Origin: Bacillota bacterium
Lineage (GTDB): Bacteria; Bacillota; Clostridia; Peptostreptococcales; Anaerovoracaceae
NCBI GenBank assembly: GCA_017433375.1
Contig: JAFRHG010000026.1
Coordinates: forward strand, 1 to 47,706
Direction of reading: 5' to 3'
DNA length: 47,706 nt
Notes under the pieces: generated by a model
The model's input: the letters and a program-made list of their open reading frames with translations, nothing else
Database searches by the model: none
What the model was told of the DNA's origin: nothing
Shown: positions 140-45,251 of the stretch, one piece after another
How the letters are laid out: the number at the start of each line of letters is the position of its first letter
Numbering within the stretch: the stretch's first letter is position 1
Position numbers and translations under genes: made by a program

Positions 140-1032
140 TACAGCAACCCCAGCTTCTGCATCTCCGCCCGCAGTACGGCGCGGTTCTTCTCTTCCATCT
201 CACAGAGGGGCAGGCGGAATCCGCCCACGCCCATGCCGGCCATGTTCATGGCTTCCTTGATGGGAATGGGATTGACCTCGATGAAGAAGTCGTTGATCAG
301 GGGCACGTATTCCAGCTGGGTCGCCGTTGCCTTTGCAGTCCGTCCCTCAATGTAGTCCCAGGTCATCTCGTGAACCTTCTCGGGCATCAGGTTGGCCCAT
401 ACGGAGATGGTGCCGGACCCGCCCAGGGACATGATGGGAATGGTGATGTCATCGTTGCCGCTCCAGATGTGGAACTCGTGGTCTTCCGTTGCCTTTGCCA
501 GTTTCGCCACATAGCCCAGGTCGCCGGAGGCCTCCTTGACGCCGACGATGTTGTCCTTTTTCGCCAGCTCGGCCATGACATCGACGGGGAAGCCGATGCC
601 CGTCCGTCCCGGGATGTTGTAGATGATCACCGGGATGTCCACGGAGTCGGCCACGTCCCAGATGTGATGGTAGAGGCCGGCCTTGTTGGCTTTATTGTAG
701 TAGGGGGAGATGCAAAGGAGGGCATCCGCCCCGGCTTTGGTGAAGCGCTCCGCCTTCTCGAAAGAGGTGCGGGTATCGTTGGAGCCGGCGTTGACAATGA
801 GCGGAATGCGGCCTTTGCAGACCTCTACAGACCGCTTGACGATCTCGAAATCCTCCTCCCAGGTGAACGTGGGGGATTCGCTGGTGGTGCCCAGAATCAG
901 AATACCGTCGGTCTTGTTGGCGATGTGGAATTCGAGAAGCTCCTCCAGCTTCTCCATGTTGATGCTACCGTCCTCGTGGAAGGGGGTGATCAGGGCTACG
1001 ATGGAGCCTTTCAGGTCAAATCGGTCAGACAT
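139..1032 (-). CDS. dapA: 4-hydroxy-tetrahydrodipicolinate synthase
   Basis: Condenses pyruvate with aspartate semialdehyde in the diaminopimelate/lysine pathway (cytosolic TIM barrel). The 297 aa from the chosen ATG match the usual DapA length. Visible active-site elements: the GTT motif (residues 48-50), PYYN (110-113), YN-P-GRTG with Tyr138 and Arg143, and the Schiff-base lysine in VGVKEA (Lys166). The start at 1032 is preferred over an upstream ATG at 1134 because AAAGGA lies about 11 nt before it and the extra N-terminus is unlike the family. The stop TAG is completed by the last C of the flanking repeat, so the mobile-element end abuts the stop codon. Two copies of the dispersed 13-mer lie in the gene (324-336, 486-498), both read as Ala-Lys-Ala-Thr. 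Confidence 0.95.
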   Translation of the reverse strand: MSDRFDLKGSIVALITPFHEDGSINMEKLEELLEFHIANKTDGILILGTTSESPTFTWEEDFEIVKRSVEVCKGRIPLIVNAGSNDTRTSFEKAERFTKAGADALLCISPYYNKANKAGLYHHIWDVADSVDIPVIIYNIPGRTGIGFPVDVMAELAKKDNIVGVKEASGDLGYVAKLAKATEDHEFHIWSGNDDITIPIMSLGGSGTISVWANLMPEKVHEMTWDYIEGRTAKATATQLEYVPLINDFFIEVNPIPIKEAMNMAGMGVGGFRLPLCEMEEKNRAVLRAEMQKLGLL

Positions 1033-1104
1033 GTAACTACCGTCCTTTCTCTGTTCGCTCCGCCCGGTCCATCGGGGGAGTGGCGGGGAATAACCGGTAT
1101 CCAT

Positions 1105-1110
1105 ATTGTA
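1105..1110 (-). promoter_or_regulatory. Candidate extended -10 for dapA
   Basis: On the minus strand TGG-TACAAT forms an extended -10 (TGN) about 70 nt upstream of the dapA start. No good -35 is visible, so this is a modest call. Confidence 0.4.
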
Positions 1111-1155
1111 CCAGATTTTTGCAGAGATATCCACCCCCGAAAGAGGAGGTCGGCG

Positions 1156-1184
1156 TTGACAATCCAGAGTCCGTACAATATAAT
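1156..1184 (+). promoter_or_regulatory. Sigma-A promoter of greA-lysS
   Basis: A perfect TTGACA (1156-1161) and a perfect TATAAT (1179-1184) are separated by 17 bp. Transcription would start near 1191, giving a leader of about 55 nt before greA. This is the strongest promoter by consensus in the window. Confidence 0.85.
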
Positions 1185-1246
1185 ATTAATCTGTATCGGC
1201 GGGTGTTTCCGGCCGGTAAAATGCTGAAAAAAAGGAGTTTTTGAAC

Positions 1247-1732
1247 ATGGTTGAATCAATCAACGAAGAAATCATTCTGACTAAAGAAGGGTATGACAAA
1301 ATCGTTGCCGAGCACGATGAGCTGGTATCCGTCCGGCGCGCTGAGGTAGCGGAAAGAATAAAGGAGGCCATCTCCTACGGAGACATCTCCGAGAACGCGG
1401 AATATGACGCGGCGAAGAACGAGCAGGCGGAGCTGGAGAACCGGATCCTGTACCTGGAGAACATGATGCGCAAGGCGAAGATCGTTCAGGACGAGGACGT
1501 CAAAGGCGACACCGCCGGCATCGGCCTGAAGGTCACCGTGAAGAACGTGGACACGGGCGAAAAACAGCAGTTCAGCATCGTAGGCGCGACGGAGTCGGAT
1601 CCCTTCGCCGGGAAGATCACCACCGAGTCCGCCGTCGGCAAGGCCCTGATCGGACACAAGAAGGGCGACACGGTGCAGGTGGAAGTGCCTGACGGCGTCA
1701 TCACCTACAAGATCGAGAAGATCGCCAAATAA
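1247..1732 (+). CDS. greA: Transcription elongation factor GreA
   Basis: Rescues backtracked RNA polymerase by stimulating transcript cleavage through the secondary channel. The 161-aa protein has the N-terminal coiled coil with the acidic tip motif GDISENAEYDAAK and the C-terminal FKBP-like domain ending in a GHKKGDTVQVEVP-type segment, at normal family length. The start is the ATG at 1247: AAAGGAG (1231-1237) lies 9 nt upstream, whereas the in-frame TTG at 1241 is too close. It precedes lysS by 53 nt on the same strand and probably shares its promoter. Confidence 0.95.
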   Translation: MVESINEEIILTKEGYDKIVAEHDELVSVRRAEVAERIKEAISYGDISENAEYDAAKNEQAELENRILYLENMMRKAKIVQDEDVKGDTAGIGLKVTVKNVDTGEKQQFSIVGATESDPFAGKITTESAVGKALIGHKKGDTVQVEVPDGVITYKIEKIAK

Positions 1733-1785
1733 AAAAGCAACGGTCGTTTAGCTAAAACAGAGAAGAAACAGTCTGGAGGAAGACA

Positions 1786-3810
1786 ATGCATTGGTCGGAT
1801 AGGATCGCGGATCGCGTAATCAGGAGAAACCCCAACAAGGAAGAGTATGTCTGCGCGGCGGGAATCAGCCCGTCGGGTTCGATTCACATCGGCAACTTCC
1901 GTGACATCGCCACGGCGCTCTTTGTGTGCCAGGCGCTGCAGCGCAAAGGCAAAAAAGCCAAGCTGCTCTTTTCCTGGGACGAATACGACCGGTTCCGCAA
2001 GGTTCCGGTAAACGTGCAGGAAGTGGATCCCGAGAACAAATTCGAGGGCTGCATCGGCCTGCCCTATAAGGATGTCCCCAACCCCTTCGACACGGAGGAG
2101 ACGGACTACGCCGACTATTTCGAGAAGGAGTTCATGCGCTCCATCGACAAGTTCGGCATCACCATGGACTACCGGTATCAGGCGGACATGTACCGCAGCG
2201 GCAAATACGTGGAGCACATCCTGACGGCGCTGAGAAAGCGGGGCGAGATCTTCGACATCCTGGACAGCTTCCGGACACAGGAAGCCCAGCCGGGCGAGCG
2301 GGAAGCCTACTACCCGGTCAGCATCTTCTGCCCCCACTGCGGCAAGGACACGACGACGATCACCAGCATAAACGATGACTGTACCGTGGCGGAATTCGAG
2401 TGCGAGTGCGGCCACAGGGGGACTTTCGATTTCACCAAAGACTTCAACTGCAAGCTGGCCTGGAAGGTGGACTGGCCCATGCGCTGGATGTACGAAGATG
2501 TTGACTTCGAGCCGGGCGGAAAGGACCACGCCAGCCCGGGAGGATCCTACGAGACCAGCAAGGTGATCTGTGAGAAGATCTATGATCACGAGGCGCCGGT
2601 CTTCGTGGGCTATGAGTTCATCGGCATCAAGGGAACCACGGGTAAGATGTCCGGTTCCTCCGGCCTGAACCTGACCCCGGAAACCCTGCTGAAACTCTAC
2701 GAACCGGAGATCATCATCTGGCTGTATTCCCGCTGCGAGCCCCAGAAGGCGTTCAACTTCTGCTTCGACGACGAGATCCTGCGCCAGTACTTCGAGTTCG
2801 ACAAGAAATACAACCAGTATGTGGACGGCACGGCCAATGACCACGACAAGACGGTCATGGAGAACGCCCTCATGTTCGGGCCCCGGATCAAGACGGTGCC
2901 TATGTCCCTGCTGGTTCAGCTGGGCTCCATCGTGGACTTCAACATCCCCATGATCGAGACGGTCTTCGAGAAGATCAACCAGCCTTATAAATATGAAGAC
3001 TTCAAGGACAGACTGGACCGGGCGAAGTTCTGGCTGGAAGAGTGCGCGCCGGAGAACGCCAACAGGCTGCGGGTGACCAGAGACTGGGAGACCTACAACA
3101 GCCTGGACGAGGACGGCAAGAAGGAGATCTCCCTGCTCTACAAATATCTGTCCGAAGAGGACTACGACATGGACGCGCTGAACGCCCAGCTCTACGCCAT
3201 TCCCAAGATCGTCTACGGCGAGGACCGGGAGGATCTGAAGAAGCTGCAGGGCGCGTTCTTCAAGACCGTGTACAAGATGCTCATCGACAAGGAGCGGGGA
3301 CCCAGGCTGTACCTCTTCCTCTACGCCATCGACAAGGAACGGTTCCTGCCTCTGCTGGACTTCTCCTATCCCCAGACCGAGGAGGAGAAGCAGGCGGATC
3401 TGGCGGCCCAGGCCCCGGCGGAAGAAGAGAAGAAGCCGGAGCGGGTCTACGGCGAGCCCGATGAGGTCGCGCCCATTACCCAGCCGGACATCAGCATCGA
3501 TGATTTCTTCCGGATGGATCTGCGGGTGTGCAAGGTGCTGAAGTGCCAGGAGATCCGCAAGGCCAGGTCCAACTTCAAGCTGACCCTCTTCGACGGGATC
3601 CGGGAACGGGTCATCGTCTCCAGCCTGAAGGGCGAGTACGAGCCGGAGGAACTGGTCGGCAAGAAGATCATCGTGGTGGCCAACCTGGAATCCGCCCGGA
3701 TGACCGGCGTCACCTCCGAGGGCATGCTGCTGGCGGGCACCAACAACGCCTGCGGCTGCAAGGTCATCTTCGTGGACGACGCGGTTCCCGAGGGGACCCG
3801 GATCTGCTGA
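1786..3810 (+). CDS. lysS: Class I lysyl-tRNA synthetase fused to a C-terminal tRNA-binding (Trbp111/EMAP-like) domain
   Basis: Charges tRNA-Lys with lysine. The 674-aa protein is the class I (archaeal-type, LysK) enzyme: signature HIGN at residues 34-37, KMSGSSG at 287-293, and a zinc knuckle with Cys182/Cys185 and Cys206/Cys208. Class I LysRS is normally about 520-550 aa. Here an acidic linker rich in Glu/Ala (about 530-565) leads to a further OB-fold tRNA-binding domain (about 568-674, with FFRMDLRV, VSSLKGEY and TSEGMLLAG) like the C-terminus of bacterial MetG or free Trbp111. The domain could raise affinity for tRNA. Start ATG follows GGAGGA. The MetG-like tail invites mis-annotation as methionyl-tRNA synthetase, but the catalytic core is LysRS-I. 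Confidence 0.88.
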   Translation: MHWSDRIADRVIRRNPNKEEYVCAAGISPSGSIHIGNFRDIATALFVCQALQRKGKKAKLLFSWDEYDRFRKVPVNVQEVDPENKFEGCIGLPYKDVPNPFDTEETDYADYFEKEFMRSIDKFGITMDYRYQADMYRSGKYVEHILTALRKRGEIFDILDSFRTQEAQPGEREAYYPVSIFCPHCGKDTTTITSINDDCTVAEFECECGHRGTFDFTKDFNCKLAWKVDWPMRWMYEDVDFEPGGKDHASPGGSYETSKVICEKIYDHEAPVFVGYEFIGIKGTTGKMSGSSGLNLTPETLLKLYEPEIIIWLYSRCEPQKAFNFCFDDEILRQYFEFDKKYNQYVDGTANDHDKTVMENALMFGPRIKTVPMSLLVQLGSIVDFNIPMIETVFEKINQPYKYEDFKDRLDRAKFWLEECAPENANRLRVTRDWETYNSLDEDGKKEISLLYKYLSEEDYDMDALNAQLYAIPKIVYGEDREDLKKLQGAFFKTVYKMLIDKERGPRLYLFLYAIDKERFLPLLDFSYPQTEEEKQADLAAQAPAEEEKKPERVYGEPDEVAPITQPDISIDDFFRMDLRVCKVLKCQEIRKARSNFKLTLFDGIRERVIVSSLKGEYEPEELVGKKIIVVANLESARMTGVTSEGMLLAGTNNACGCKVIFVDDAVPEGTRIC

Positions 3811-3826
3811 TCCGGCGCCCGGAGCT

Positions 3827-3850
3827 CCGTTGCCTTTGCAAAAGCAACGG
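3827..3850 (+). repeat. Inverted copy of the dispersed motif downstream of lysS
   Basis: The exact 13-mer CCGTTGCCTTTGC (3827-3839) is followed by AAAAGCAACGG, making a 7-bp stem (CCGTTGC/GCAACGG). It sits 16 nt after the lysS stop and upstream of the terminator. Its arrangement resembles paired uptake-sequence copies near gene ends in Neisseria and Haemophilus. Confidence 0.7.
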
Positions 3851-3866
3851 AAATACAGTGAAACAC

Positions 3867-3912
3867 AGACCGGAGACGTTTCCCCTGAAGGAGAGGCGCT
3901 CCGGTTTTTCTG
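3867..3912 (+). terminator. Rho-independent terminator after lysS
   Basis: ACCGGAG (upstream arm) pairs with CTCCGGT (downstream arm), followed directly by a T run. The loop is about 20 nt and can form a small inner stem. Confidence 0.65.
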
Positions 3913-8848: not shown

Positions 8849-8855
8849 ATTATGT

Positions 8856-8895: not shown

Positions 8896-8924
8896 TTGCA
8901 TTGCCTTTGCAGATATGGTAGATT
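8896..8924 (+). promoter_or_regulatory. Promoter of the infC operon
   Basis: TTGCAT (8896-8901), 17 bp, TAGATT (8919-8924). A near copy of the dispersed motif (TTGCCTTTGC, 8901-8910) lies in the spacer. Predicted start about 8931. Confidence 0.6.
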
Positions 8925-11284: not shown

Positions 11285-12976
11285 ATGGCTGATCAACGAA
11301 CGAGCGTCATGGTCGATGTCGGCGAACACGGGCTCAAAAAGCACGACATTAAAACGTCGACGGTCGTCTTCATGATCTTCTGTCTGGTCGCGGCCGGATG
11401 CTTCGGCATCGAGGAGGCGATTCCGGACTCGGGACCCGGCCTGACCATCATCATGCTCTGCATCATGCCCTTTGTCTGGGGGCTGCCCTTCGGACTGGTG
11501 GCTTCGGAACTGGGCTCCGTCCGTCCCCAGGAAGGCGGATATTACAAATGGGTGCAGGAGGCACTGGGCGAGTTCTGGGGATTCCAGGCCGGCTGGTGGA
11601 GAACGATCTCCATCTATATCGACAATGTTTCCTACGTTATCCTCGCCGGCGGCTACGCGTCGAGGTTCTGGGACTTCAACCGGCTGGAGGAATTCATCTT
11701 CAAGTTCGCGATGATCTTCATCTTCGTGTTCATCAACATCCGCGGCGTCAAGGACGTGGGTATCGTCAGCACCATTCTGGCCATCCTCGTCATGGTTGCC
11801 TTTGCCATGGTGGCCGTCTGCGGCTTCCTGAACTGGGGCGGTGACGCGGAAACCGCGTCGACCATCTCCTTCCAGCTCACGCCGGAAGCCTGTGAGGGCG
11901 CCGGGGACTGGCTGGTCTATATCGGTTCGGGAATAGCGGTCATCATGTGGATGTATTCGGGCTATGAGAGTATGTCCACCATAGCCGGGGAGATCTCCAA
12001 CCCGCAGGTCATCCCCAAGGGAACGCTGATCACCATTCCGATCATCATGGCGTCCTACATCCTGCCTACCGTGGCGGGCCTGGGTTCCCTGGGACAGTGG
12101 GAAAACTGGGGGACCAACGGGGACGGCATCGGATACGGCGAGGTGCTGACCCACTTCTGGGGAATCGGGTTCGGACTGTTCTTCACCGTCATCGCGATCC
12201 TGGCCCAGTGCTCTATCTTCAACACCTACATCGCATCGGGATCCCGGGGATTCTTCTCCCTGGCGGACGATAACCTGGCGCCGCCCATCATGGTCCGGTG
12301 CGATAAGAAGTACGGCGTGCCCTATGTGGCGGTTCTGTCCATCGGCATTTTCTCGCTGCTGCTGTGCATGTTCCCCTTTGGCCTGATCATCGTACTGGAT
12401 ATGGCCCTTCTGACCTCGTCCTATCTGCTGGTGTTCATCTCCACCATGGTTCTGCGCAAGCGCATTCCGGAGGAGGAATACCCCTTCCGGATTCCGGGAG
12501 GCGACGGACTGATGAAGGTGATCTGCATCGTGCCCATCGCACTGGCCGTATTCGCCTTCCTGATCAACGGATCCGATTATTTCATCGGCGGCATGGTCGG
12601 CTTGCTCACGGGGCCCCTGCTCTACATCATCTGGAGAAGGAGATACGGCGGCCTGTCGAAGAAGGCGCCGGACCTGTTCCCGGTCAATCCCAGGACGGGG
12701 CTGCAGTACGGAGACACGAAGAGAATCACCTTCCTGCTTCTGCTCATGACCATTATGTGTGTCGCCATGCGCCTGTTCGCGCCCTGGTATGAGGGCTGGT
12801 TCGGCGGAGCCAACGAGTGGGATCCGGACGATTATTTCGACGGCATGTTCCCCAACGCGGACCTGACGGGTCTGCAGCACATCCTGCAGTCGGGCGTCAC
12901 CATTCTGATCGCCGTCTGCGGCATCGCCTGCGTCGTTTTCTTCCTCCTGTCAAAAAAGCTGGAAGCAGAAAAGTAA
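11285..12976 (+). CDS. APC-superfamily amino acid permease
   Basis: A 563-aa polytopic membrane protein with about 12-14 hydrophobic segments. The first helix carries the APC-type unwound region (CLVAAGCFGIEEAIPDSGPG), followed by ELGSVRPQEGGYYKWVQEALGEFWGF, characteristic of the amino acid/polyamine group. The YSGYESMSTIAGEISNPQ segment is the conserved mid-protein APC signature. Substrate unknown; glutamate/GABA, arginine or polyamine transporters are near relatives by pattern. Strong GGAGAGGAGG site before the start. The gene is monocistronic: a terminator follows at 13015-13048. Probably activated by the neighbouring two-component system. Confidence 0.85.
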   Translation: MADQRTSVMVDVGEHGLKKHDIKTSTVVFMIFCLVAAGCFGIEEAIPDSGPGLTIIMLCIMPFVWGLPFGLVASELGSVRPQEGGYYKWVQEALGEFWGFQAGWWRTISIYIDNVSYVILAGGYASRFWDFNRLEEFIFKFAMIFIFVFINIRGVKDVGIVSTILAILVMVAFAMVAVCGFLNWGGDAETASTISFQLTPEACEGAGDWLVYIGSGIAVIMWMYSGYESMSTIAGEISNPQVIPKGTLITIPIIMASYILPTVAGLGSLGQWENWGTNGDGIGYGEVLTHFWGIGFGLFFTVIAILAQCSIFNTYIASGSRGFFSLADDNLAPPIMVRCDKKYGVPYVAVLSIGIFSLLLCMFPFGLIIVLDMALLTSSYLLVFISTMVLRKRIPEEEYPFRIPGGDGLMKVICIVPIALAVFAFLINGSDYFIGGMVGLLTGPLLYIIWRRRYGGLSKKAPDLFPVNPRTGLQYGDTKRITFLLLLMTIMCVAMRLFAPWYEGWFGGANEWDPDDYFDGMFPNADLTGLQHILQSGVTILIAVCGIACVVFFLLSKKLEAEK

Positions 12977-14808: not shown

Positions 14809-14878
14809 TTTCCGCTCCACAAAGGTAGTGTAATATGATATACAGGTTAGTGTGATGGGAACCGCGGAGGGGACACGT

Positions 14879-18856: not shown

Positions 18857-18878
18857 GGTTGCCTTTGCACGGAGGCGG

Positions 18879-31135: not shown

Positions 31136-31158
31136 GCAAAGGCAACGGTTGCCTTTGC
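31136..31158. repeat. Perfect inverted pair of the dispersed motif between potC and potD
   Basis: The exact motif GCAAAGGCAACGG (31136-31148) and an inverted 11-bp core GTTGCCTTTGC (31148-31158) share one central base, giving an 11-bp perfect palindrome. It sits 8 nt after the potC stop and before the potD ribosome binding site. As RNA it can fold with a 7-nt loop and could lower or stabilise parts of the operon mRNA. Confidence 0.8.
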
Positions 31159-36483: not shown

Positions 36484-36624
36484 ATGGTTAAGAGAGATAT
36501 TGAATACGCTGTGCCCGATGATCCTATTACACCAGAGCTTTTGGAGGATGGCTCCTATCTGAAAAAAGCAACGGAAATCTGCAACAGGAACTGGACACAA
36601 CAGAGATGGATCGATGAAGGTTAG
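36484..36624 (+). CDS. Unknown 46-aa protein
   Basis: A short reading frame starting 22 nt after the ADP-ribosylglycohydrolase with an excellent AAGGAGG. The product (MVKRDIEYAVPDDPITPELL to RWIDEG) is acidic, with no recognisable domain. Its 3' end overlaps the next gene by 11 nt in another frame, typical of co-translated genes. Spacing and the ribosome binding site make it credible despite its size. Confidence 0.6.
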   Translation: MVKRDIEYAVPDDPITPELLEDGSYLKKATEICNRNWTQQRWIDEG

Positions 36625-36772
36625 ATGGAACGGAGAAACAAACTTCCTTGTTTTGACACACGGGAAGGTGTATGAAGTCCTTTCGATTGAGAAGGGATGG
36701 TATAGAGTAATCGATGACAGCGGCGAGGACTATCTTTACCCGCCTGATCGGTTTTTGATCGTGGAGGAGTAG
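36614..36772 (+). CDS. Unknown 52-aa SH3-like protein
   Basis: A 52-aa frame beginning MKVRWNGETNFLVLTHGKVY and ending with PPDRFLIVEE. The pattern of short beta strands (GKVYEVLSIEKGWYRVIDDSG) suggests a small SH3-like barrel. It overlaps the preceding gene and may be translationally coupled. A terminator follows at 36806. Its role with the ADP-ribosylglycohydrolase is unknown; immunity, adaptor or regulatory roles are possible. Confidence 0.6.
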   Translation: MKVRWNGETNFLVLTHGKVYEVLSIEKGWYRVIDDSGEDYLYPPDRFLIVEE

Positions 36773-36805
36773 AGGCTTGATTGGAGATCATGTAGTTGTT
36801 ATGTA

Positions 36806-36833
36806 GAATGAAGAGCCTCCGGGCTCTTTTTTC
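36806..36833 (+). terminator. Terminator of the ADP-ribosylglycohydrolase operon
   Basis: AAGAGCC pairs with GGGCTCTT around a 3-nt loop, followed by a T run. Confidence 0.8.
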
Positions 36834-36938
36834 GTTGGAGGAAACAGTGGCATTCACATTTATGCCCGCGATTTTGCCCGCGCTTACAGGTAAAATGAGG
36901 TGGAATGAGGAATTTTCATGGCTGGTTTTTAGTAATGA

Positions 36939-36973
36939 AAAACCCCTGTAATCGTTGAAATTACAAGGGTTTT
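36939..36973. repeat. Hairpin next to the distal attachment repeat
   Basis: AAAACCC-TGTAAT and ATTACA-GGGTTTT pair with one mismatch. It ends 5 nt before the tRNA-derived repeat. Hairpins of this kind are common beside attachment sites of Firmicutes integrative elements, but this is by resemblance only. Confidence 0.5.
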
Positions 36974-36977
36974 CAAA

Positions 36978-37001
36978 TGGTGGAGCATAGGGGGATCGAA
37001 C
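36978..37001 (-). repeat. Distal attachment-site-like copy of the tRNA-Ala 3' end
   Basis: These 24 bases are identical to 44079-44102, the 3' end (CCA, acceptor arm and part of the T arm) of the tRNA-Ala gene. The rest of the tRNA is missing here. A tRNA 3'-end duplication is the usual footprint of a tyrosine-integrase element inserted into a tRNA gene, so the repeats bracket a 7.1-kb island. Confidence 0.75.
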
Positions 37002-37120
37002 ACTCAAATTGAGTTTCATCGATTTCAAAAACGCGCATTTTTCAACGGTTACAGCATTTGAAAGTCCTGTGTCAAAGCAAAAAGTGTTACCAGTGTTACC
37101 TGCTGGGCACTATTTCAGAA

Positions 37121-37152
37121 AACCCAGTCCTGATTATTCGGACTGGGTTTTT
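37121..37152 (+). terminator. Terminator-like hairpin inside the island
   Basis: AACCCAGTCC (37121-37130) and GGACTGGGTT (37140-37149) with a T run. A related AACCCAGT...ACTGGGTTTT hairpin lies at 39760-39796, so similar hairpins bracket the A+T-rich block. Confidence 0.7.
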
Positions 37153-37715
37153 GTAAGCAAAAACTAAAGAGGGCACGTACCTGGTACCACTACTTGAAGA
37201 TTGCATAGAAGACAAAACACTTTTCATAACTTGAAAGCATTTTTACTCAACCCCGTATGATTATTATCATAGGGGAGAAATCATATAGGAGTGACTCTAC
37301 CTTTATGGGTACACTTCATTTCGTCTGTAAAGTAAACAGGACGGCTTTTGCCATCCTGCCTGCTTTACGGTGCAGCGGAGTGGCATCGAACTCAATCGGC
37401 TGTCTTGAAACGTCGAAATTACAAGGAAGGCTGGTACTCCGTTCCCAAAAGAATTCAATAGTATTCAAAACTCGTTATAATACGTCAATCAACATCATTC
37501 TGCAGAATACACCTATAGCATTTTTGTGTTTTGTTCGTCACTTATATTTCTTCCTTTAAAGGTAATTAATGGCATGAGTTAAACATATTCAATTATTTTG
37601 AACATGTTTAACTCAGTTTCCAGTTTTATGTCTTCTCTAACTTATTACCTTGTCATATTCATTAACTATCGATTTAGATCAGATATCATCCCCCAATTAG
37701 CTCTATGTATAATAA

Positions 37716-37910
37716 CTACTCTTCTATTTCGACAATCTTGATTGCTGATTCAACAAGAATATTAATCAATTCATTACGTGAACGATTTGTTTCCGCTGAA
37801 AGACTATCTAATTTATCGACAAGATCTGCTCTCATTCTCACGGATACTATTTTGTAACCATCATCACCTTTCTTTGTCGCTTTTTTAGTTATCGCAATCT
37901 TCTGTTCCAT
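37716..37910 (-). CDS. Ribbon-helix-helix DNA-binding protein
   Basis: A 64-aa protein. After a Lys-rich N-terminus comes an Arc/CopG-type fold: strand KIVSVRMRADLV, helix VDKLDSLSAETN, the turn RSRNEL, and helix INILVESAIKIV. Such proteins are autoregulators or antitoxins on mobile elements; no toxin partner is adjacent. A GAGGGGA ribosome binding site precedes the ATG at 37910. A+T-rich composition marks it as island DNA. Confidence 0.75.
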   Translation of the reverse strand: MEQKIAITKKATKKGDDGYKIVSVRMRADLVDKLDSLSAETNRSRNELINILVESAIKIVEIEE

Positions 37911-38044
37911 GGTATTCCCCTCGAAATTGTATATTTACTTATGGATATTTTAGGTTGCCAAAAGTGTTTTTTATATACTATAATTATGTAGTGTAATAAT
38001 AACTATTAATTTATAGTGGTACGTGATGAGAGGTGATATTAATT

Positions 38045-38917
38045 ATGAAAACATGTCCTGCTTGTGGTACTAAAACCGAAAGTAAGTTTTGCCCAGAGTG
38101 TGGAACTGATTTGTCTTTGGTGCAAGATGTAAAAGTATGTCCAAAATGCGGAACTGAATCAACAACAAAGTTCTGTCCGGAATGTGGAACTGATTTGTCA
38201 AATAATACGTCAGCCTTTGAACCAGTCAAAATAACACAAAACACTGAAGAGTCTCTATCAGAACAATTTACCGAAGAACCTGTCGTAACTCCTGAAGTCA
38301 TTCAACCAGATGAAGTTCAAGTAAATGAAACAAATCGCGGAATTCCAGTTGGTGCTGTTGCTTCGCAGATGATAAAAACTAAAAAGTCAAAGAAAAAGCT
38401 CTTTATAATTATTGGAGCGGTTGTGTTATTGTTACTTATTATCGGAATCGGTATGGGCGGCGAAGATGAAGAAACAGCTTCCACAACCGAAGACACGGAA
38501 GCATATACTGAGGCGGAAGAAGAAACTACTGAGGCAACTACTGAAGCGACTACTGAACCAACAACAACGGCACCTGTTGCCCAATTTACAAAAGAAGAAG
38601 ACTATGAAAGTATCTCTTACGATAATCTTGCTCGTAATCCGGATGACTATACAGGGAAAATGGTCAAGGGATCCGGTAATGTGCTTCAAGTGATGGACGG
38701 AGAGAATGAAGTTGATTTAAGAATAGGCACCTCTAGTGACGGATATGACGATGTTGTGCTCGCATATTATGATCCTAACATCGTTGATTCCAGAATACTT
38801 GAGGACGATCAAGTAACATATTATGGCCAGTCCCTAGGGTTATATACATATGAATCAACTATGGGCGGGGATATAACAGTTCCATTAATCGAGATTCATA
38901 AAATCACTAGAGATTAG
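38045..38917 (+). CDS. Membrane protein with double zinc ribbon and extracellular Thr/Glu linker
   Basis: A 290-aa protein. Two consecutive zinc ribbons at the N-terminus (CPACGTK...FCPECGTD, CPKCGTE...FCPECGTD, about 1-55), an acidic linker, a Lys-rich stop and one TM helix (about 117-137), a Thr/Glu-rich extracellular linker, and a C-terminal beta-rich domain (about 190-290, with DDYTGKMVKGSGNVLQVM) resembling an OB-type fold. Membrane proteins of this layout are common in Firmicutes and of unknown role. The ATG at 38045 follows AGAGGTG. A GTG at 38033 is an alternative. A+T-rich, unlike the flanking chromosome. Confidence 0.78.
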   Translation: MKTCPACGTKTESKFCPECGTDLSLVQDVKVCPKCGTESTTKFCPECGTDLSNNTSAFEPVKITQNTEESLSEQFTEEPVVTPEVIQPDEVQVNETNRGIPVGAVASQMIKTKKSKKKLFIIIGAVVLLLLIIGIGMGGEDEETASTTEDTEAYTEAEEETTEATTEATTEPTTTAPVAQFTKEEDYESISYDNLARNPDDYTGKMVKGSGNVLQVMDGENEVDLRIGTSSDGYDDVVLAYYDPNIVDSRILEDDQVTYYGQSLGLYTYESTMGGDITVPLIEIHKITRD

Positions 38918-38965
38918 TTTTCTGTTAACAAGTCTTCCCAAAGTAAGAACTATAATAGAATTCTA

Positions 38966-39475
38966 ATGAATTACAATTCGGTTCTTGGCCCAATTGATCC
39001 GCAAGTCATGAATAAAGAGGGCCGTTTCGTTCCGGCATTAGGTTATCTTGGCAAGATAAAACCACTCATAGAGAAAGCGGAAAATGACACGATATCTGAA
39101 GCGGAATTTGCTATTCTTACCAGTTTTGATTTGGCAGAATTGAGTCTTTATGAACAAGCTGTAGAATTAACAACTGATTTGTTAGAAAAATGGCTTGCAG
39201 AGTATAAGTTTAAGGATTGGGGAGGACATTCTGATGAAGAAAAGAAAACACGTGCAAATGAAATAGCGAGAGAGTTGGCAAATTATGAAAGATGGAAATC
39301 TCATGGTAGACCGTTGAGTATTGATGTGCTTCGAAGCCTACGGTTGAAGATAGATGATTTTGAAGAGATTAATAATTTGAATGTCCTTATTCCTGAGTTT
39401 CATGCAGTTTGCGAAGATTTTATGGAACTGGCTGGTATAGAAGCATTTATTTTTTCAAGGAGTGATTTATTATGA
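38966..39475 (+). pseudogene. N-terminally truncated SDH-type (ClpP-fold) serine protease
   Basis: A 169-aa frame that matches only the C-terminal half of the SDH_protease (serine dehydrogenase proteinase) family. It begins with SVLGPIDPQ, which in complete proteins lies mid-sequence after the nucleophile serine, and ends with the characteristic WKSHGRPLS...LRSLRLKIDDF. The usual length is about 280-330 aa. No missing N-terminal half is found upstream: the preceding 48 bases separate it from the zinc-ribbon gene. The remaining part lacks the catalytic serine and is probably non-functional, or retained only for binding. No ribosome binding site. Confidence 0.72.
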
Positions 39476-39660
39476 GTGATAGGCTTGTAGAACGGATTCA
39501 ATCGCAGAAAAAAAACACCAGACATGCAGATAACAAGTTTGCTCAAAAGAAATATGTACCAATTGAACGAGGTTTTAATGGACATAGTATAAGCGATAAA
39601 ACGCCACGCACTTATGGAGAATTAGAAAAGAGGTTTTCAATTGGACATATATATAGATGA
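39472..39660 (+). CDS. Unknown 62-aa protein downstream of the SDH fragment
   Basis: Starts within the previous stop (ATGA overlap), so it was probably translated with the protease gene. The very basic product (MSDRLVERIQSQKKNTRH to SIGHIYR) has no recognised domain. Coupling suggests it was a functional companion of the intact protease. Confidence 0.55.
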   Translation: MSDRLVERIQSQKKNTRHADNKFAQKKYVPIERGFNGHSISDKTPRTYGELEKRFSIGHIYR

Positions 39661-39902
39661 GATACAAACAGAGACAATAATAATTCTCGCAGAAAAAAAC
39701 ATATCATCATTATGTAAGAGCATTTTAAAGTGTGTGCAAACTTTTAGCTAATACGAAATGAAACCCAGTTATCAATAAATAATGAGACTGGGTTTTGCTT
39801 TCGGTGAGATTCTTTTTATCTATTCGGATTTCCATTCCGCCCGGTTTTTGGTGCTAACAGGCCGTATAACATTCCTGGCCATGGATCCTCCAGCAAGCTC
39901 TT
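39661..39902. other. Spacer with terminator and an orphan coding remnant
   Basis: Holds a terminator (39760-39796). On the minus strand from about 39918 to 39823 an open stretch reads STEEDIKAIEELAGGS, then ARNVIRPVSTKN, and ends EWKSE-stop. It lies just beyond the truncated transposase in another frame and looks like the tail of a lost gene I cannot identify. Confidence 0.45.
39760..39796 (+). terminator. Terminator-like hairpin
   Basis: AACCCAGT pairs with ACTGGGTT around an A+T-rich 19-nt loop, followed by TTG. Its stem resembles that at 37121-37152. Confidence 0.55.
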
Positions 39903-40718
39903 CTATGGCCTTAATATCCTCTTCTGTGCTATCGTGTAATCCAGGATCCACCCGTTCTCATCACAGGCCGTTTCGACTGCATAGGCAAACACCTCCTTGT
40001 GTTCTCCTTTGTGGAACCACCCGCTTTCCGGGTCTGTTGTGCTCTGTTTCTTCTCTTTCATGGCAGCTTCTTCAAGAGGTGTGGATCCGCTGCCGCCGGA
40101 GTTCATGTCATCGTCATCGCGGTCAACATCATCCTTGTCTTTCAGCGGTTTCTTTCCATGTGCTGCTCTGTCAGCGTCGATTTCTTCTCGGAGTTTTTCA
40201 TCATAGAATCGCGCTTCCTTCTTTGCCACGAGGATCTTCTTGGCTTTCTTCCTGTTTGCGGCCGCTTTCACATGTGTAGCATCTACGAACATAGTATCGG
40301 TGTTCACCAGATCGTTTTTCATACATTGAAGGAGAATCTGCTGGAAGATCTGTTCAAACAGATCCGTCCCTTCAAAACGCCTCTTGTAATTCTTCCCAAA
40401 TGTACTGAAGTGGGGTACCTTGTCATAGAAATCCAGCCCCAGAAACCATCTGTATGCCACGTTGACCTCGATCTCTCTGATCGTCTGTCTCATGCTTTTT
40501 ATGCCGAACATATACTGGATGATCGGGATCTTGATGAGGGTCACGGGATCGATGCTTGGCCTTCCCGTTTCCGTCGAATACTTTTCTTCAACGAGATCGT
40601 AGATGAAGTCGAAGTCGACTGCTGCGTCGATCTTCCTCAGCAGATGATCTTCCGGAACGAGTTGTTCCAGCGAGACAATCTGCATCTGTGGTTCCTTTCT
40701 TCCGTTCTTTGAGATCAT
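39903..40718 (-). pseudogene. C-terminally truncated IS1182-family transposase
   Basis: The 271-residue frame from the ATG at 40718 (after AAAGGCGG) matches the N-terminal and middle parts of IS1182-type transposases: VPEDHLLRKIDAAVDFDFIYD, RPSIDPVTLIKIPIIQY, a first catalytic Asp in FVDATHVKAAANRKKAKK, and GWFHKGEHKEVFAYAVETACDENGWILDYT. After DYT the sequence leaves the family and stops, losing the second half (later DDE residues). Full-length proteins are about 450-550 aa, so the element is dead. Its insertion or decay probably disrupted this part of the island. Confidence 0.85.
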
Positions 40719-40809
40719 TGAAAACCGCCTTTCTTTTACATTCATATTTTACCATTTATTGGGTTTAAAGACTTCGTTTTCAATGATGTTTTAAATTTTG
40801 TGCAATAGA

Positions 40810-40844
40810 AAAGGTCCGATTTCTCGTTTTGAAATCGGACCTTT
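40810..40844 (-). terminator. 14-bp hairpin downstream of the redox operon
   Basis: AAAGGTCCGATTTC (40810-40823) and its exact complement (40831-40844) flank a 7-nt loop. On the minus strand it is followed by TTTTCTATT, so it can terminate the operon that ends at 40954. Confidence 0.75.
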
Positions 40845-40856
40845 GTCTACAGTCTG

Positions 40857-40882
40857 AACGACGGGTGTCACCCGTCGTTTTC
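40857..40882 (+). terminator. 10-bp hairpin with 3-nt loop
   Basis: AACGACGGGT (40857-40866) and ACCCGTCGTT (40870-40879), then TTCG. It sits immediately before the degenerate tRNA-like repeat. Confidence 0.6.
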
Positions 40883-40886
40883 GTCC

Positions 40887-40908
40887 TGGTGGAGCGTAGG
40901 GGAATCGC
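40887..40908 (-). repeat. Degenerate third copy of the tRNA-Ala 3' end
   Basis: Matches the 24-bp attachment-like repeat at most positions (differences at the 10th and 17th bases and at the end). It divides the island into an A+T-rich half and a redox half, as expected if two elements integrated one after the other at the same tRNA. Confidence 0.5.
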
Positions 40909-40953
40909 GGCGCGAAATCAGTCGGTCTGCTTTACTAGAAAGACCACAAATCA

Positions 40954-41895
40954 CTAAGCTCTGTTAAACTTTTCTTTCCCTTGTTTGCAGCGCGGGCACT
41001 TCCAGTCGTCTGGCAGGTCCTCAAACGCAACGCCATCATGTTCCGCCGGGTCATATACATAGCTGCATATGGAGCAGACATATTTTCCGGTTCCTTCGCT
41101 TTTAGAGAAATCGACTTCTGCAAAAACTGTCGGAACAGGATTATCCAGATCCATAACGCGCTTTGCTTCCAGATTTTCATACCCTTGCGGTGTATGCGTG
41201 CCGCAGTAAACAGTCGGATGATTCCGGATAAATTCACGAACTCTGTCCTGTGTTTCGCGGGCCGCGCCCAGATCGTCAAAGACCACAGAGAGCTTATCCT
41301 CATAAAGCGCCTCATCCACATAAGTGATATCGCCATGGAGCATGTAAAACAGGCCATCATTCTCCACGATGATGATGCTGTTGCCATTCGTATGGCCTTT
41401 GGCCTTGATGAGATAGATTCCATCCTGGATCTTCTGGCTCTCAGGGAAATTGTAATATGCGCCGTCTGTGAACTCTACCGGAGCGAGGTTCGGTATGCCC
41501 TGCAGTTCATCAGCGGACATTTCATCAGCATTGACATATATTTTCGCATTTGGGAATGATTTTAATTCGCCGGAGTGATCGGCATGCTTATGGGTCAGTA
41601 GAATCTTCGTCACTTGCTCAGGCTTATATCCCAGACCGGCAAAAGCTTCCATATAGCTGCAAGTCTCTTCACCGACAAAGCCAGGGCTGTTTTCATCAGG
41701 CACCTCGACCGGCATCCCGGCAGGAAACCCGGTATCAACAAGAATCACCTCATCTCCTGTATCAATCAGATAATTCTGCAACGTGCCGCGATAACGCACA
41801 TTCTTGTCAAACTTCTCCATTTCTTCTTCTCCGCCAAAGGCGAACGGCTGTGTGTAAAATCCATTCTCTCTGAATTTGACTGCTTTGATTTCCAT
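40954..41895 (-). CDS. Metallo-beta-lactamase-fold hydrolase fused to rubredoxin
   Basis: A 313-aa fusion. The N-terminal MBL fold (about 20-255) has the ligand set [26 protein letters not shown] and CGTHTPQ. It lacks the following flavodoxin domain of flavodiiron proteins. The C-terminal rubredoxin (about 268-313) has both CxxC pairs ([21 protein letters not shown]). Electron delivery through the iron centre could support detoxification of O2, NO or peroxides, or the hydrolase may act on thioesters or lactones. Third gene after flavodoxin and OhrR-like MarR on the minus strand. AAGGAG precedes the start. Confidence 0.85.
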
Positions 41896-41914
41896 AGTTC
41901 GTCTCCTTATTTGC

Positions 41915-42373
41915 TTATGTGTGTGTTTCCATTCGAATCAGCGCCTTGTCCAGAAGCTGTTTCAGCTGTAATAGTTCCTCCTCCGGCAGATCAATACATC
42001 CTCGCATCGATTCCGGCACATCAGCCGCTTTGTCCTTGAGTTTCTCCCCCTTTTCCGTCAAAGATAGAAACAGCTTCCGCTCATTGCCGGCCGGGCGGAC
42101 GCGGCTTACCAGTCCCTGCTTTTCCAGCCGTTTTAAAAGCGGTGCGAGCGTGCCGGAATCAAGATGTACGATTTTACCCAGCTCTCCCTCTGTCATTCCG
42201 CCGTGCTCCCAGAAAACCATCATCACGACATACTGCGTATATGTGAGTCCCAGTTCCTCAAGCGGCTTTCGATATTGTCTTACAACTTCCTTTGCGCAGG
42301 CGTAGAGGGGAAAACAGAGCTGATTATCCAGCCGGATGCAATCATATTTTGTTGTTTTCTTCTCACTCGTCAT
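41915..42373 (-). CDS. OhrR-like MarR-family redox regulator
   Basis: A 152-aa winged-helix regulator. The N-terminal [21 protein letters not shown] matches OhrR, whose peroxide-sensing cysteine sits in the LCF motif (Cys20 here; a second Cys is at 26). The recognition part is [21 protein letters not shown]. Likely a repressor released by organic peroxides or hypochlorite, controlling this operon. Its ATG overlaps the flavodoxin stop (ATGA). Confidence 0.85.
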
Positions 42374-42765
42374 GATATGAATTTCTCCGCGAAAACCGCT
42401 GCGTCCTTTAGCTGCGCCTCATTGGGCTTGCTTTTGACATAGAATGTTTCCGATTCAACCGGAATACCTTTTTCCGCAAGACCTTTTTTTATCAGATCAA
42501 GGGAATGCTTCGAGATCCACGATGTGGAGAAAACGACCGCTTTCTTCACTTTATCTTTGTCGAGTGTTTCCAGATAATCCTTTAAGTGGCTGTCAAGCCC
42601 GTAGGCGTACAATGCTCCGCCGATAAACAGCACATCCACCGGCTCTGTGATGGCTGCATTTGCCTGATCCACCGAAACAGCGGAAACGTCCGCTGCTTTC
42701 GCGATTGCTTCGGCAACGGCCCTGGTGTTTCCGGAGCGGGAATAATATCTTACTGCAATGTTCAT
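42370..42765 (-). CDS. Flavodoxin-like protein
   Basis: A 131-aa short-chain flavodoxin fold. The FMN phosphate loop is SRSGNTRAVAEAI near the N-terminus, followed by DVLFIGGALYAYG and the second loop AVVFSTSWISKHS. Probably an electron carrier to the MBL-rubredoxin protein or a quinone-type reductase. GAAGGAG precedes the start. A stem (42793-42822) lies between it and the upstream ferritin-like gene. Confidence 0.85.
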   Translation of the reverse strand: MNIAVRYYSRSGNTRAVAEAIAKAADVSAVSVDQANAAITEPVDVLFIGGALYAYGLDSHLKDYLETLDKDKVKKAVVFSTSWISKHSLDLIKKGLAEKGIPVESETFYVKSKPNEAQLKDAAVFAEKFIS

Positions 42766-42844
42766 AAATCACTTTCTCCTTCCATATGCAGACAGACCGT
42801 CTCAATACTTTAAGACGGCCTGAGCATAATTATAATTTCTCTCC

Positions 42845-43294
42845 TTATTCACCGAGCATCTCGATCATGTAGTTTTCCATACCGATCTGCTCGATCAGGC
42901 ACAGGTGACCCTTGACCCAGTTGAAATGATCCTGTTCGTCAATAATGAACTCTTCGATCATGTGCCTGGTGACATAGTCATCGTCAAACATAGCAAGTGC
43001 CTGGCTCATCATCGGAAGCGCTTCGGCCGCATCCTTGCAGTCATATTCGAGCATTTCCTTGATATCGGTAATAACAGGATACTCTTCGATCACAACTGCA
43101 GGTGTTTCTCCAAGCTCGATCAGACGGGCGTTGACCTTCTTGGCCTCTTCCCATTCCTCATCGGACTCCGCCATGATCTTGTCCGCCAGCTTGTTCAGTC
43201 CGCGAGCCTTCAAAAGCTGCGCATGAATGGAATGCTGCTGAGAATTACCGAACCAACCTTTTGCCAATGCCTGCAGGAATTCAATTTTTGTCAT
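42845..43294 (-). CDS. Ferritin-like (bacterioferritin-type) diiron protein
   Basis: A 149-aa four-helix protein. Diiron-type ligands are visible as Glu-x-x-Glu-x in EEWEEAKKVNARL, and as EEFIIDEQDHFNWVKGH in the last helix pair. Likely stores iron or removes peroxide. It is first in the redox gene set on the minus strand and has a GGAGGA ribosome binding site. Direct GTGCGC words at 43333 and 43350 lie before it and may be a regulatory site. Confidence 0.8.
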   Translation of the reverse strand: MTKIEFLQALAKGWFGNSQQHSIHAQLLKARGLNKLADKIMAESDEEWEEAKKVNARLIELGETPAVVIEEYPVITDIKEMLEYDCKDAAEALPMMSQALAMFDDDYVTRHMIEEFIIDEQDHFNWVKGHLCLIEQIGMENYMIEMLGE

Positions 43295-43373
43295 TTTTCT
43301 ATCCTCCGTATATTTCTTTTTATCGTGCGCTATATTATTGTGCGCAATCAGTTTATGTCTTTATTTTACGCAT

Positions 43374-43411
43374 AAAAAAAGACAGTGCAATTCACAAAGT
43401 CCGCACCGTCT
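43374..43411 (-). terminator. Terminator of the tetR gene
   Basis: On the minus strand AGACGGTGC pairs with GCACTGTCT (one bulge), followed by a run of seven T. Confidence 0.8.
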
Positions 43412-43424
43412 CTCATAATGAGAG
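43410..43424. promoter_or_regulatory. 15-bp palindrome near the tetR stop
   Basis: CTCTCAT-A-ATGAGAG is a perfect palindrome. A further CTCTCATTAT follows at 43439. Possible operator of the TetR protein, although it is also part of the terminator region. Confidence 0.4.
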
Positions 43425-43444
43425 ATTCCATGCAAATTCTCTCA

Positions 43445-43996
43445 TTATCGTTCCAGATATTCAAGCAGCGGCTGCGGCACTGAATTCTCATACACTTCCG
43501 CGATTTCCTCCGGCGCCGCATCATATTTGCCCAGAATCCATTCACAACTCAAGTTTACAGTCCCAAGACAATAGATGCGGATATACAGATCTGTTCTGTC
43601 GTCCAGTTCTTTGATGTCATTGGTCTTCAATATGTGTTTTCGCAGCGCTTTGTAATTAACGTCTGTCATGTACCGGATAAATGCATCATGACCACTGGTA
43701 TGCAAAAGCAGGTTCGACAAATACTCTTTCTCTTTCATGAATAGCCTTGCACCATCCAGCAAGGTCTCTTTCCATGTGTACTCTTCTCCTCCAACCTGAT
43801 CCATGATGGCTGACACAGCTTCTGAATAGGCCCATGCGATCAGATCATATTTGTCCCGAAACTGCCTGTAAAAAGTCGCCGGTGAATAGCCGCAGTTTTC
43901 CACGATATCCTTTGTGGTAATCTTATCTATTTCTTTTGTCTTTGACAGCTCATAAAACGATTCTGCCAGGATCTCTTTGGATGTCTTCCTTTTCAT
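43445..43996 (-). CDS. TetR/AcrR-family regulator
   Basis: A 183-aa regulator. The N-terminal HTH is ITTKDIVENCGYSPATFYRQFRDKYDLI. The rest is the ligand-binding helix bundle, of the shorter type seen in DhaS-like regulators. Target unknown; the adjacent redox genes are candidates. The ATG at 43996 is 12 nt from AGGAGG. A GTG at 44005 is only 3 nt away and is less likely. Confidence 0.85.
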   Translation of the reverse strand: MKRKTSKEILAESFYELSKTKEIDKITTKDIVENCGYSPATFYRQFRDKYDLIAWAYSEAVSAIMDQVGGEEYTWKETLLDGARLFMKEKEYLSNLLLHTSGHDAFIRYMTDVNYKALRKHILKTNDIKELDDRTDLYIRIYCLGTVNLSCEWILGKYDAAPEEIAEVYENSVPQPLLEYLER

Positions 43997-44078
43997 GATT
44001 TGCACGCGCCTCCTATCGACAGTCCCATTATATCATTAGATAAGAAAAAGAGAAGCGTTCTCACGCTTCCCAAAGGGT

Positions 44079-44154
44079 TGGTGGAGCATAGGGGGATCGA
44101 ACCCCTGACCTCGTGATTGCGAACCACGCGCTCTCCCAGCTGAGCTAATGCCCC
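44079..44154 (-). tRNA. tRNA-Ala (CGC anticodon)
   Basis: Full cloverleaf: acceptor GGGGCAT/ATGCTCC, D arm GCTC/GAGC, anticodon stem CGTGG/TCACG with loop TTCGCAA (anticodon CGC), T arm AGGGG TTCGATC CCCCT, discriminator A and encoded CCA. Its 3' end is the 24-bp sequence repeated at 36978, so it appears to be the integration target of the island. Confidence 0.93.
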
Positions 44155-44243
44155 AGGTCACCGCTGCTTCCCGCAGTCAGCCCTTGCATTATACACCAAT
44201 GAGCGGAGAAATCAAGCGGTTTTTGGGTTTTTCCCAAGAGTGA

Positions 44244-45251
44244 TCAGTAGATAATGACCATGGTGCCTTTTTTACAGTTGGCATAGATCCAGCCGGCGTT
44301 GGTGACGCCGTTGCGGATGCATCCGTGGGAGGCCAGCCGGCCCAGGTGGGACTTCATGTTCCCGGAGACGCCGTGGAGGGCGTTCCAGCCGGAGAAGCAG
44401 TTCCAGAAACGGATGCCGTGCCGGGTGGGCACTTTCTTCTGGATGACCTTATGTCCCGTGGGTGAGGGCGTTGACGCCATGCCCATGGAGACATCCCAGT
44501 TCTTGACGGTGCTCCAGACACCGTTCTTCTTCTCGAAGACATAAAGCCGCTGGGTATAGGAACTGACCCAGATCAGATACTTCTTGTCGGTGTTGATTTT
44601 CTTCTGGCGGACGTATTCGTTGATGAAGAAGGCCGCCTCTTTCTTGGAGTAGTTGCTTTTCCGGTTGTAGTCGGCGTTCTGGTTGCTGACGGAGATCCGG
44701 GAAACCGCGTGGCGCTTGCCTTTGTAATTGAAGATGTAATAGCCGCCGCCATAGGCATCGGCTCCGATACGGGTGCCTTTTTTGACGGTGACGTCATCGT
44801 ATTTCTTCGTCTTCTTGAAGGTCACGAAGATGCGCATCTTGCTGACCGCGCTCTCCCGGATCTTCGCCGGGGCGGACTGGATCAGCTTGCCGCCTTCGTT
44901 CCTGGCCGCGATGATGCGGTAGGCAAAGTTCGTGTAGATGCCGGGAACGGGGGAGACGAGGTAGCGCTCCTTGGTGGTGGCGATCTGGGCGAACTTCATC
45001 TTGCCGGCGACGCTGCGCTGGATGATGTAGTACTGGGCGTTGGGCACCGGGTCCCAGGTCAGCTTCACACAGCCGAATCCGGACAGGGCGTGGACATTTT
45101 TCGGTACGGCGAGGGAGGTGATGGCCTTGGGCGCGGCCGGGGTTGCCGCCTTGGTTGTCGCCTTAGTTGTGGTAGGCGCTGCAAAGGCAACGGCCTGGCT
45201 CATGGTCGTCAGCATCAGTATAGTAATCAGTATGCAGATAATTCGTTTCAC
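44244..45251 (-). CDS. L,D-transpeptidase (YkuD) with FN3 module
   Basis: Exported peptidoglycan cross-linking enzyme of 335 aa. Signal peptide to about residue 25 (AVAFAAP cleavage region), a Thr/Ala/Lys/Pro linker, an FN3-like domain (about 48-130), a middle beta domain, and a C-terminal YkuD domain (about 215-335) with the catalytic SHGCIRN (Cys about 317) and a preceding His in NALHG. The start codon is GTG, after GGGGCGAG. An exact dispersed 13-mer (45181-45193) lies in the signal peptide, read as Ala-Val-Ala-Phe-Ala. Confidence 0.88.
   Translation of the reverse strand: MKRIICILITILMLTTMSQAVAFAAPTTTKATTKAATPAAPKAITSLAVPKNVHALSGFGCVKLTWDPVPNAQYYIIQRSVAGKMKFAQIATTKERYLVSPVPGIYTNFAYRIIAARNEGGKLIQSAPAKIRESAVSKMRIFVTFKKTKKYDDVTVKKGTRIGADAYGGGYYIFNYKGKRHAVSRISVSNQNADYNRKSNYSKKEAAFFINEYVRQKKINTDKKYLIWVSSYTQRLYVFEKKNGVWSTVKNWDVSMGMASTPSPTGHKVIQKKVPTRHGIRFWNCFSGWNALHGVSGNMKSHLGRLASHGCIRNGVTNAGWIYANCKKGTMVIIY

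Follow-up and report, generated by a model that had tools for sequence, protein, structure and literature searches.

DNA uptake words are known only from Neisseriaceae and Pasteurellaceae, according to passages of a 2025 paper (PMC12616744), and almost all other competent species take up DNA regardless of its sequence, as stated in parts of another (PMC12040237). In Neisseriaceae, excerpts of published work describe dialects of the DNA uptake sequence (DUS) and name the minor pilin ComP as its receptor (PMC3630211). For the uptake signal sequence (USS) of Pasteurellaceae, they give Hin and Apl dialects and a proposed receptor, PpdA/ComN (PMC12616744). Inverted pairs of uptake words act as transcription terminators in Neisseria and Pasteurellaceae, by the account excerpted from PMC1852404. 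The relevant part of a Veillonella screen reports no word of at least 10 bp at 100 or more copies (PMC5397411). For Bacillota we found no such word described in the open literature searched, which comprised titles, the starts of abstracts and some passages, with most subscription papers and all preprints outside it; the letters GCAAAGGCAA as such occur in 118 papers. Here we describe a short word, with the 11-bp form GCAAAGGCAAC, that recurs in a 47,706-nucleotide stretch of DNA (the window; contig JAFRHG010000026.1, positions 1 to 47,706) and throughout the genome of its host, a Bacillota bacterium of the family Anaerovoracaceae (assembly GCA_017433375.1). To judge from its genomic pattern, this word is probably a DNA uptake sequence, a DUS- or USS-like tag, in a genus of Clostridia capable of natural transformation.

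The word resembles the neisserial DUS in being non-palindromic, 10–12 bp long and present in very many copies, with related dialects and with transformation genes in its hosts. It differs in its core, which is GCAAAGGC and not of the GCCGTCTGAA family of the DUS proper, in its monoderm Bacillota host and in its density of ~0.3–0.6 strict words/kb. Terminator-like pairs are few, several dialects occur within one GTDB genus, and no ComP-like receptor was identified in this analysis. With USS the word shares a core of ~9 bp with extended preference, as well as dialects. USS are thought to spread by biased transformation. Unlike USS, the word comes from another phylum, is unrelated in sequence, forms few terminator-like pairs and has a logo without AT-rich flanking tracts. 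Genome-wide over-representation is also a property of the cyanobacterial highly iterated palindrome HIP1, of Chi recombination hot spots and of FtsK-orienting polar sequences (KOPS). HIP1 is palindromic and common to large clades, and we know of no comparable dialects between sister clades for HIP1, Chi or KOPS.

Abundance and form of the word in its own genome

The genome that contains the window (G000) comprises 1,953,975 bases in 38 contigs and is 89% complete. The control for each count was the same word read backwards. The 13-bp word that a reading of the window from sequence alone had singled out occurs 68 times in this genome, against 2 reversed controls. Its 11-bp form occurs 253 times (4 controls) and the 10-mer GCAAAGGCAA 517 times (260 forward and 257 reverse; 9 controls). 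Comparison with a Markov model, which that sequence-only reading had proposed, likewise gave an excess: in a 400-kb sample, taken as a grid of 20 stretches, the most over-represented 9-mer was CAAAGGCAA, with 160 copies where an order-2 Markov chain predicts 2.5. Over-representation is genome-wide and not confined to the window. The window's density of CAAAGGCAA (0.42/kb) lies within the range of 20 other stretches of the genome (0.15–0.70/kb); in the 13-mer it is richer (7 in 48 kb) than the genome as a whole (68 in 1954 kb). Shuffled, Markov and synonymous controls rule out chance or base composition as the source of the words.

The 13-mer proved not to be the unit; it is a shorter word with an extension. 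Information in the logo is concentrated in G-C-AAAGGCAA-(C/T), with C preferred over T at the last position; further preference is weak and the flanks are flat. The unit is an 8-bp core, GCAAAGGC (often GCAAARGC), followed by a lineage-dependent 3′ end, which in G000 is AA(C/T). Nothing common extends beyond 11–12 bp, so the word is not copied as a piece of a longer unit, the outcome that had been named as speaking against a signature word.

Placement relative to genes was analyzed in 488 kb of G000 with a simple gene caller of our own (87% coding). This sequence holds 189 CAAAGGCAA sites, of which 142 are coding, 45 intergenic and 2 partial or at borders. The intergenic share is thus 24% of sites for 13% of bases, an enrichment of ~1.8-fold. 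The enrichment at gene ends that had been proposed holds for spacers overall and fails for convergent ones, which are poorer in words than the other kinds (4 words in 11.8 kb; forward tandem spacers hold 25 in 23.5 kb). Coding sites are neutral with respect to gene direction (73 forward, 69 reverse). All six frame-orientation states are occupied, in line with the earlier observation of words in more than one reading frame, and their use is uneven, which would follow from limits that the protein sets on the placement of words. Synonymous codon shuffling within genes left 8 coding copies in place of the real 142, a 17-fold difference. The words are also neutral with respect to replication as far as local GC skew on contigs can tell, which is no true replichore test (92 on the same strand, 97 on the opposite). 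Their spacing appears random (coefficient of variation 1.03).

Dialects and turnover of sites within the genus

The genus in which the word is abundant is that of the metagenome-assembled genome (MAG) UBA1191 in the family Anaerovoracaceae, named 'Candidatus Colimonas' in the part of the literature consulted (PMC8957277). A dapA search of named genomes returned 23 loci, all from MAGs of uncultured Clostridia or Bacillota, many of them from rumen or gut samples. In one of these, UBA1191 (locus L190), dapA occupies the contig coordinates that it has in G199, which places UBA1191 in the genus. Core densities, obtained by dividing counts by rounded genome sizes, separated 49 genomes of the genus into 34 word-rich genomes (0.19–0.55 GCAAAGGC/kb) and 15 word-poor genomes (0.04–0.13/kb). 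Forward and reverse counts were about equal across the 49. The word-poor genomes include the well-covered G200 (100%), G162 (99%) and G190 (99%). A family-wide draw contained 296 genomes, 23 of this genus and 273 from 91 other genera. Outside the genus, GCAAAGGC reached at most ~0.2/kb (G018 and G147, with controls half as high), a value that touches the lowest word-rich congener (G215, 0.19/kb) and not the bulk. In a first family draw, each of the 196 other genomes had between 0 and 8 copies of the 11-mer. The four congeners in that first draw were all word-poor, which made the word look unique to one species; the count over the whole genus corrected this.

Counting words de novo in parts of the congeners' genomes revealed that relatives carry related but different words, as in the known DUS and USS dialects. 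The dialect of G000 is GCAAAGGCAA(C/T). In G208 the word is TGCAAAGGCTGG, with the 3′ end TGG (the TG dialect); 460 kb of this genome held 269 copies of CAAAGGCTG against 5.65 expected, and 102 of the 12-mer against 0.11. Counts of GCAAAGGCTG are high in five genomes (G208, 864; G238, 556; G204, 355; G226, 332; G234, 332) and range from 5 to 89 in the remaining 44. Further words are GCAAAGGCAG and GCAAAAGCA-like in G199 and G202, and TGCAAAGGCA in G201. The letters following CAAARGC, tabulated across genomes of which many rest on <26 kb, are AA in G000 and G224 and TG in G208; G238 and G226 combine TG with AG. The group of G199, G202, G225 and G228 has GCAAARGCA followed by G, A or T. G222, G230, G206 and G207 show little 3′ preference though they are among the densest in the core. 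In G127 (stretches L056–L060, L071, L072 and L133), GCAAAGGGC is weakly enriched (12 copies against 0.62 expected in 136 kb) and is possibly a further dialect. No dialect word was found in 60–131 kb each of G200, G190, G162 and G236; word-poor species may have lost selectivity, or their words may be too weak for samples of this size.

Orthologous sites show how words arise and are lost. Two exact 13-mers of the window lie in dapA (Pfam DHDPS), on the minus strand at 324–336 and 486–498, and both encode AKAT. Orthologues were compared at 30 loci, drawn from 45 genomes with a match, and both sites aligned without gaps. At 486–498, GCAAAGGCAAC is present in G000, G224, G231 and G233 and the core in 13 more distant congeners, and G226, G238 and G208 encode AKAT with other codons. 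At 324–336, the AA word GCAAAGGCAAC (AKAT) of G000, G224 and G231 corresponds to GCAAAGGCTGC in G208 and G238 and to GCAAAGGCAGC in G226, both encoding AKAA. Here the site follows the dialect, with a change of amino acid and without insertion.

Alignments between G000 and G208 (64 kb) covered 23 words of the first genome and 33 of the second. Not one of these was the same word in the other genome, and one in each set stands as the other's dialect word. Of the 23 G000 sites, 16 aligned with ungapped non-word sequence in G208 and 7 were gapped. With the flat flanks and the two ungapped dapA sites, these 16 place the origin of words in point substitution. Within dialects (seven pairs), 70 of 94 words were kept as words and 63 (67%) were identical in every letter. 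Adjacent stretches of equal length were identical in 59 of 185 cases (32%; Fisher p 3e-8). The seven pairs are unequal, and in G000–G224 (4 sites) the per-base identity of words is no higher than that of flanks. A wider set of 16 overlapping pairs, with sites counted from both sides, gave 252 of 344 words kept against 109 expected. Words thus arise by substitution and persist among species of one dialect; across dialects they have either been lost or never arose.

Transformation genes and the case for an uptake sequence

Genes for transformation and pili, which the sequence-only reading had suggested looking for, are present in the genus. Of 49 genomes, 45 have DprA and 40 have ComEC; matches above the cut-off occur in 43 for ComEA and in 44 for a T2SSE-family ATPase. 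ComEC, DprA and pilus ATPases are all present in G000. Its type IV pilus locus (L031:10763–18990, on G000:C3) contains an N_methyl pilin (L031:10763–11179), PilB and PilT (both by T2SSE), T2SSF, PilM and an A24 peptidase, together with a weak match to T2SSM. A further T2SSE ATPase at C8:110910 is perhaps of the Tad type. As full-length PilB matches (>400 bits) occur in only 4 of 49 genomes, a second locus is the more general candidate. This operon (L131:4150–7913, on G000:C7) encodes GspF, a PilT-like ATPase and four small membrane proteins (L131:5215–6861), one of them a DUF4860 protein, and has no PilB.

One change of dialect may coincide with a change of this operon. In a topA tree of Pfam-checked sequences, the G000 group (G000, G231 and G233) is sister to the five TG-dialect genomes (support 98/97). 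The tree of the PilT-like ATPase, with 27 rows that include three of the five TG genomes, places G000 with ten other word-rich rows (100/99) and the three TG genomes apart. Forcing G000 together with the TG rows costs 17 log units (approximately unbiased test, p 0.004, the tested group having been named after a first tree). GspF of G208 is 40% identical to that of G000, compared with 67–72% for five more distant congeners. The PilT-like operon thus seems to have been exchanged at the dialect switch, which would explain both the conflict between trees and the GspF identities; as one event, it is a lead and not proof. ATPase type as a general determinant of dialect was rejected, since it fits the TG clade only and the 52–55% type spans word-rich and word-poor species. 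G208 has two PilT-like ATPase matches of equal score (C14:1346 and C34:335848), reflecting either duplication or assembly redundancy.

Over-representation on both strands, dispersal, related dialects and the presence of com and pilus genes (in word-poor congeners too) are the properties of DUS and USS, and they support the earlier suggestion of an uptake sequence or genome signature word. The measured pattern is what biased transformation would be predicted to leave. The double-stranded word would be bound at the cell surface by a DNA receptor, most likely a pilin-like component of a type IV or Com-like pilus that retracts. The pilus would hand word-bearing free DNA to ComEA and ComEC, one strand would enter, and DprA and RecA would recombine it. 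Because word-bearing fragments would be preferentially taken up, alleles carrying words would be copied into the population more often and, by this molecular drive, point substitutions would fill the genome with words in any frame the protein tolerates. A change of receptor would change the favored word, and a new dialect would accumulate at new places. Binding, uptake bias and the receptor are what we infer from this pattern.

Each alternative to an uptake sequence accounts for part of the data. A nucleoid-associated protein, a global regulator or a self-marking defense or restriction system might bind the word, and its enrichment in spacers as well as the pairing of some words into palindromes, TTGC(C/T)TTTGCAAA(A/G)GCAA (4 pairs among 238 sites), would suit such a site. 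We consider this unlikely, since three quarters of sites (142 of 189) lie within genes in all frames, nearly all words are single and non-palindromic, and the gain by substitution with an amino-acid change at one site looks drive-like and not regulatory. Restriction sites, moreover, tend to be avoided. Somewhat less likely still is a Chi-like or segregation motif, a recombination hot spot or KOPS read by a motor such as AddAB or FtsK and kept by selection. Dispersal, abundance, conservation between close species and the tendency of such motifs to vary between lineages agree with it. Chi and KOPS are strand-biased, and a strand-reading motor is disfavored by the neutrality of the word to both GC skew (92/97) and genes (73/69). 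The word is also 9–12 bp long, long for a Bacillota Chi, and sister clades differ in its 3′ end, with none of 23 and none of 33 compared words in common.

Dispersal as a small mobile or copied repeat, similar to repetitive extragenic palindromes or miniature inverted-repeat transposable elements, would fit the high copy number and the occasional inverted pairs. Flat flanks, with no common sequence beyond 11–12 bp, and ungapped orthologues, at both dapA sites and as non-word G208 sequence at 16 of 23 G000 sites, leave this very improbable, and for the ungapped sites compared it is refuted. An artefact of codons, peptides or base composition has next to no probability. The word does encode tolerated peptides (AKA, VAFA) and its frames are used unevenly, but it exceeds synonymous shuffles 17-fold, is as common antisense as sense and is enriched in spacers. 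These results refute the artefact, and the antisense and spacer copies likewise disfavor RNA or codon signals.

A number of observations weigh against the word being an uptake sequence. The reversed control tracks base composition and shows no clean split between word-rich and word-poor genomes. Ratios of word to control are 5.0 and 4.1 in the word-poor G218 and G162, and only 1.9 and 2.2 in the word-rich G206 and G232, for which reason the assignment of these last two is doubtful. Eleven of 15 word-poor congeners have ComEC, ComEA over the cut-off and DprA, so this machinery does not predict words, and the presence of com or pilus genes fails to discriminate rich from poor. ComEA of G000 is a sub-cut-off match only, in an incomplete assembly. 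None of the four small proteins of the operon has a pilin-family Pfam match over the cut-off. The PilT-like ATPase (at least 50% identity) occurs in 27 of 49 genomes, with 20 among the 34 word-rich ones and 7 among the 15 word-poor ones, and is missing from G210, which is word-rich and 98% complete. The link between dialect and operon rests on one switch, and G000 forms a long branch in the ATPase tree. The TG-dialect genome G204 has ATPase matches of two types (C27:1278 and C194:749), one nearly the same as that of G203; the second type perhaps represents a second operon or contamination. Finally, only 8 inverted pairs within 40 bp were found among 238 CAAARGCAA sites, and convergent spacers are poor in words; the terminator-forming pairs that are frequent in Neisseria and Pasteurellaceae are scarce here. 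Such pairs are a common trait of known uptake words and not a defining one.

With these points weighed, we somewhat favor a broader account in which a sequence-specific DNA-uptake ('mate-recognition') system evolved independently in monoderm Clostridia and its tag split into dialects inside a single genus, one clade's change coming with exchange of a pilus operon. Biased uptake would then have rewritten hundreds of sites per genome, even changing amino acids, and in uncultured gut bacteria transformation would form a barrier between species that can be measured. If the word works like the tags of Neisseria and Haemophilus, tag-guided uptake arose in Gram-positive bacteria too. Tag-based uptake would then have arisen independently for a third time, now in gut bacteria that are Gram-positive, and would not be tied to an outer membrane; sexual isolation would have been shown in uncultured bacteria. 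The 49 related genomes with their several dialects allow the receptor to be sought by co-variation. The reading also suggests adding the word to DNA when attempting to transform these bacteria.

Copies of the word in the window

All seven exact 13-mers and all eleven copies of the 11-bp form that had been listed for the window were found in place. No 13-mer appeared in any of 100 dinucleotide shuffles, and with up to one mismatch GCAAAGGCAAC occurs 22 times against 0.76 expected from such shuffles. Among the gene names proposed from sequence alone, Pfam bears out the dapA family (with its two words), the response regulator and MATE (MatE); other word-bearing genes are by Pfam an amino-acid permease and a YkuD protein.

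Beyond dapA, the 13-mer at 3827–3839 (minus strand) lies 16 bp past the end of a gene called at 1786–3810. It forms the left arm of a near-perfect 24-bp palindrome (3827–3850), whose right arm is a one-mismatch word, GCAAAAGCAACGG, at 3838–3850 (plus strand). A second inverted repeat, of 23 bp (31136–31158), lies between two genes and joins a 13-mer at 31136–31148 (plus) to an 11-bp copy at 31148–31158 (minus). Neither of the window's two inverted pairs is followed by a T-run. Within genes, 13-mers occur on the plus strand in the response-regulator gene (15263–15275; gene 14852–15592) and in the MatE gene (19805–19817; gene 18893–20230). An 11-bp copy lies antisense within the permease gene (11795–11805, minus; gene 11309–12976). 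The last 13-mer (45181–45193, plus) is near the 5′ end of the opposite-strand YkuD-domain gene (44244–45215). Intergenic 11-bp copies are found ~25 bp before the MatE gene (18858–18868, minus) and, by the gene caller used here, at 20420–20430 (plus). A mismatch search added an intergenic T-ended variant, GCAAAGGCAAT, at 8900–8910 (minus).

The island from which the word had been reported missing is an AT-rich stretch at 36501–44200 (GC 43%, host genome ~58%), and it holds no copy of CAAAGGCAA. Bins of 2 kb with GC below 50% contain 3 words in 16 kb, small numbers that include the 7.7-kb island. The lack of words in the island agrees with an uptake sequence, but word-free gaps of 9.5–17.7 kb also occur in DNA of normal G+C content. 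By Pfam, the island's genes are redox proteins and regulators: ferritin, flavodoxin, an MBL-fold plus rubredoxin protein, MarR and TetR. The GATC-containing 8-mers GATCAGCA, CCGGATCC and GATCCGGA are also frequent in the window, with 16–17 copies counting both strands.

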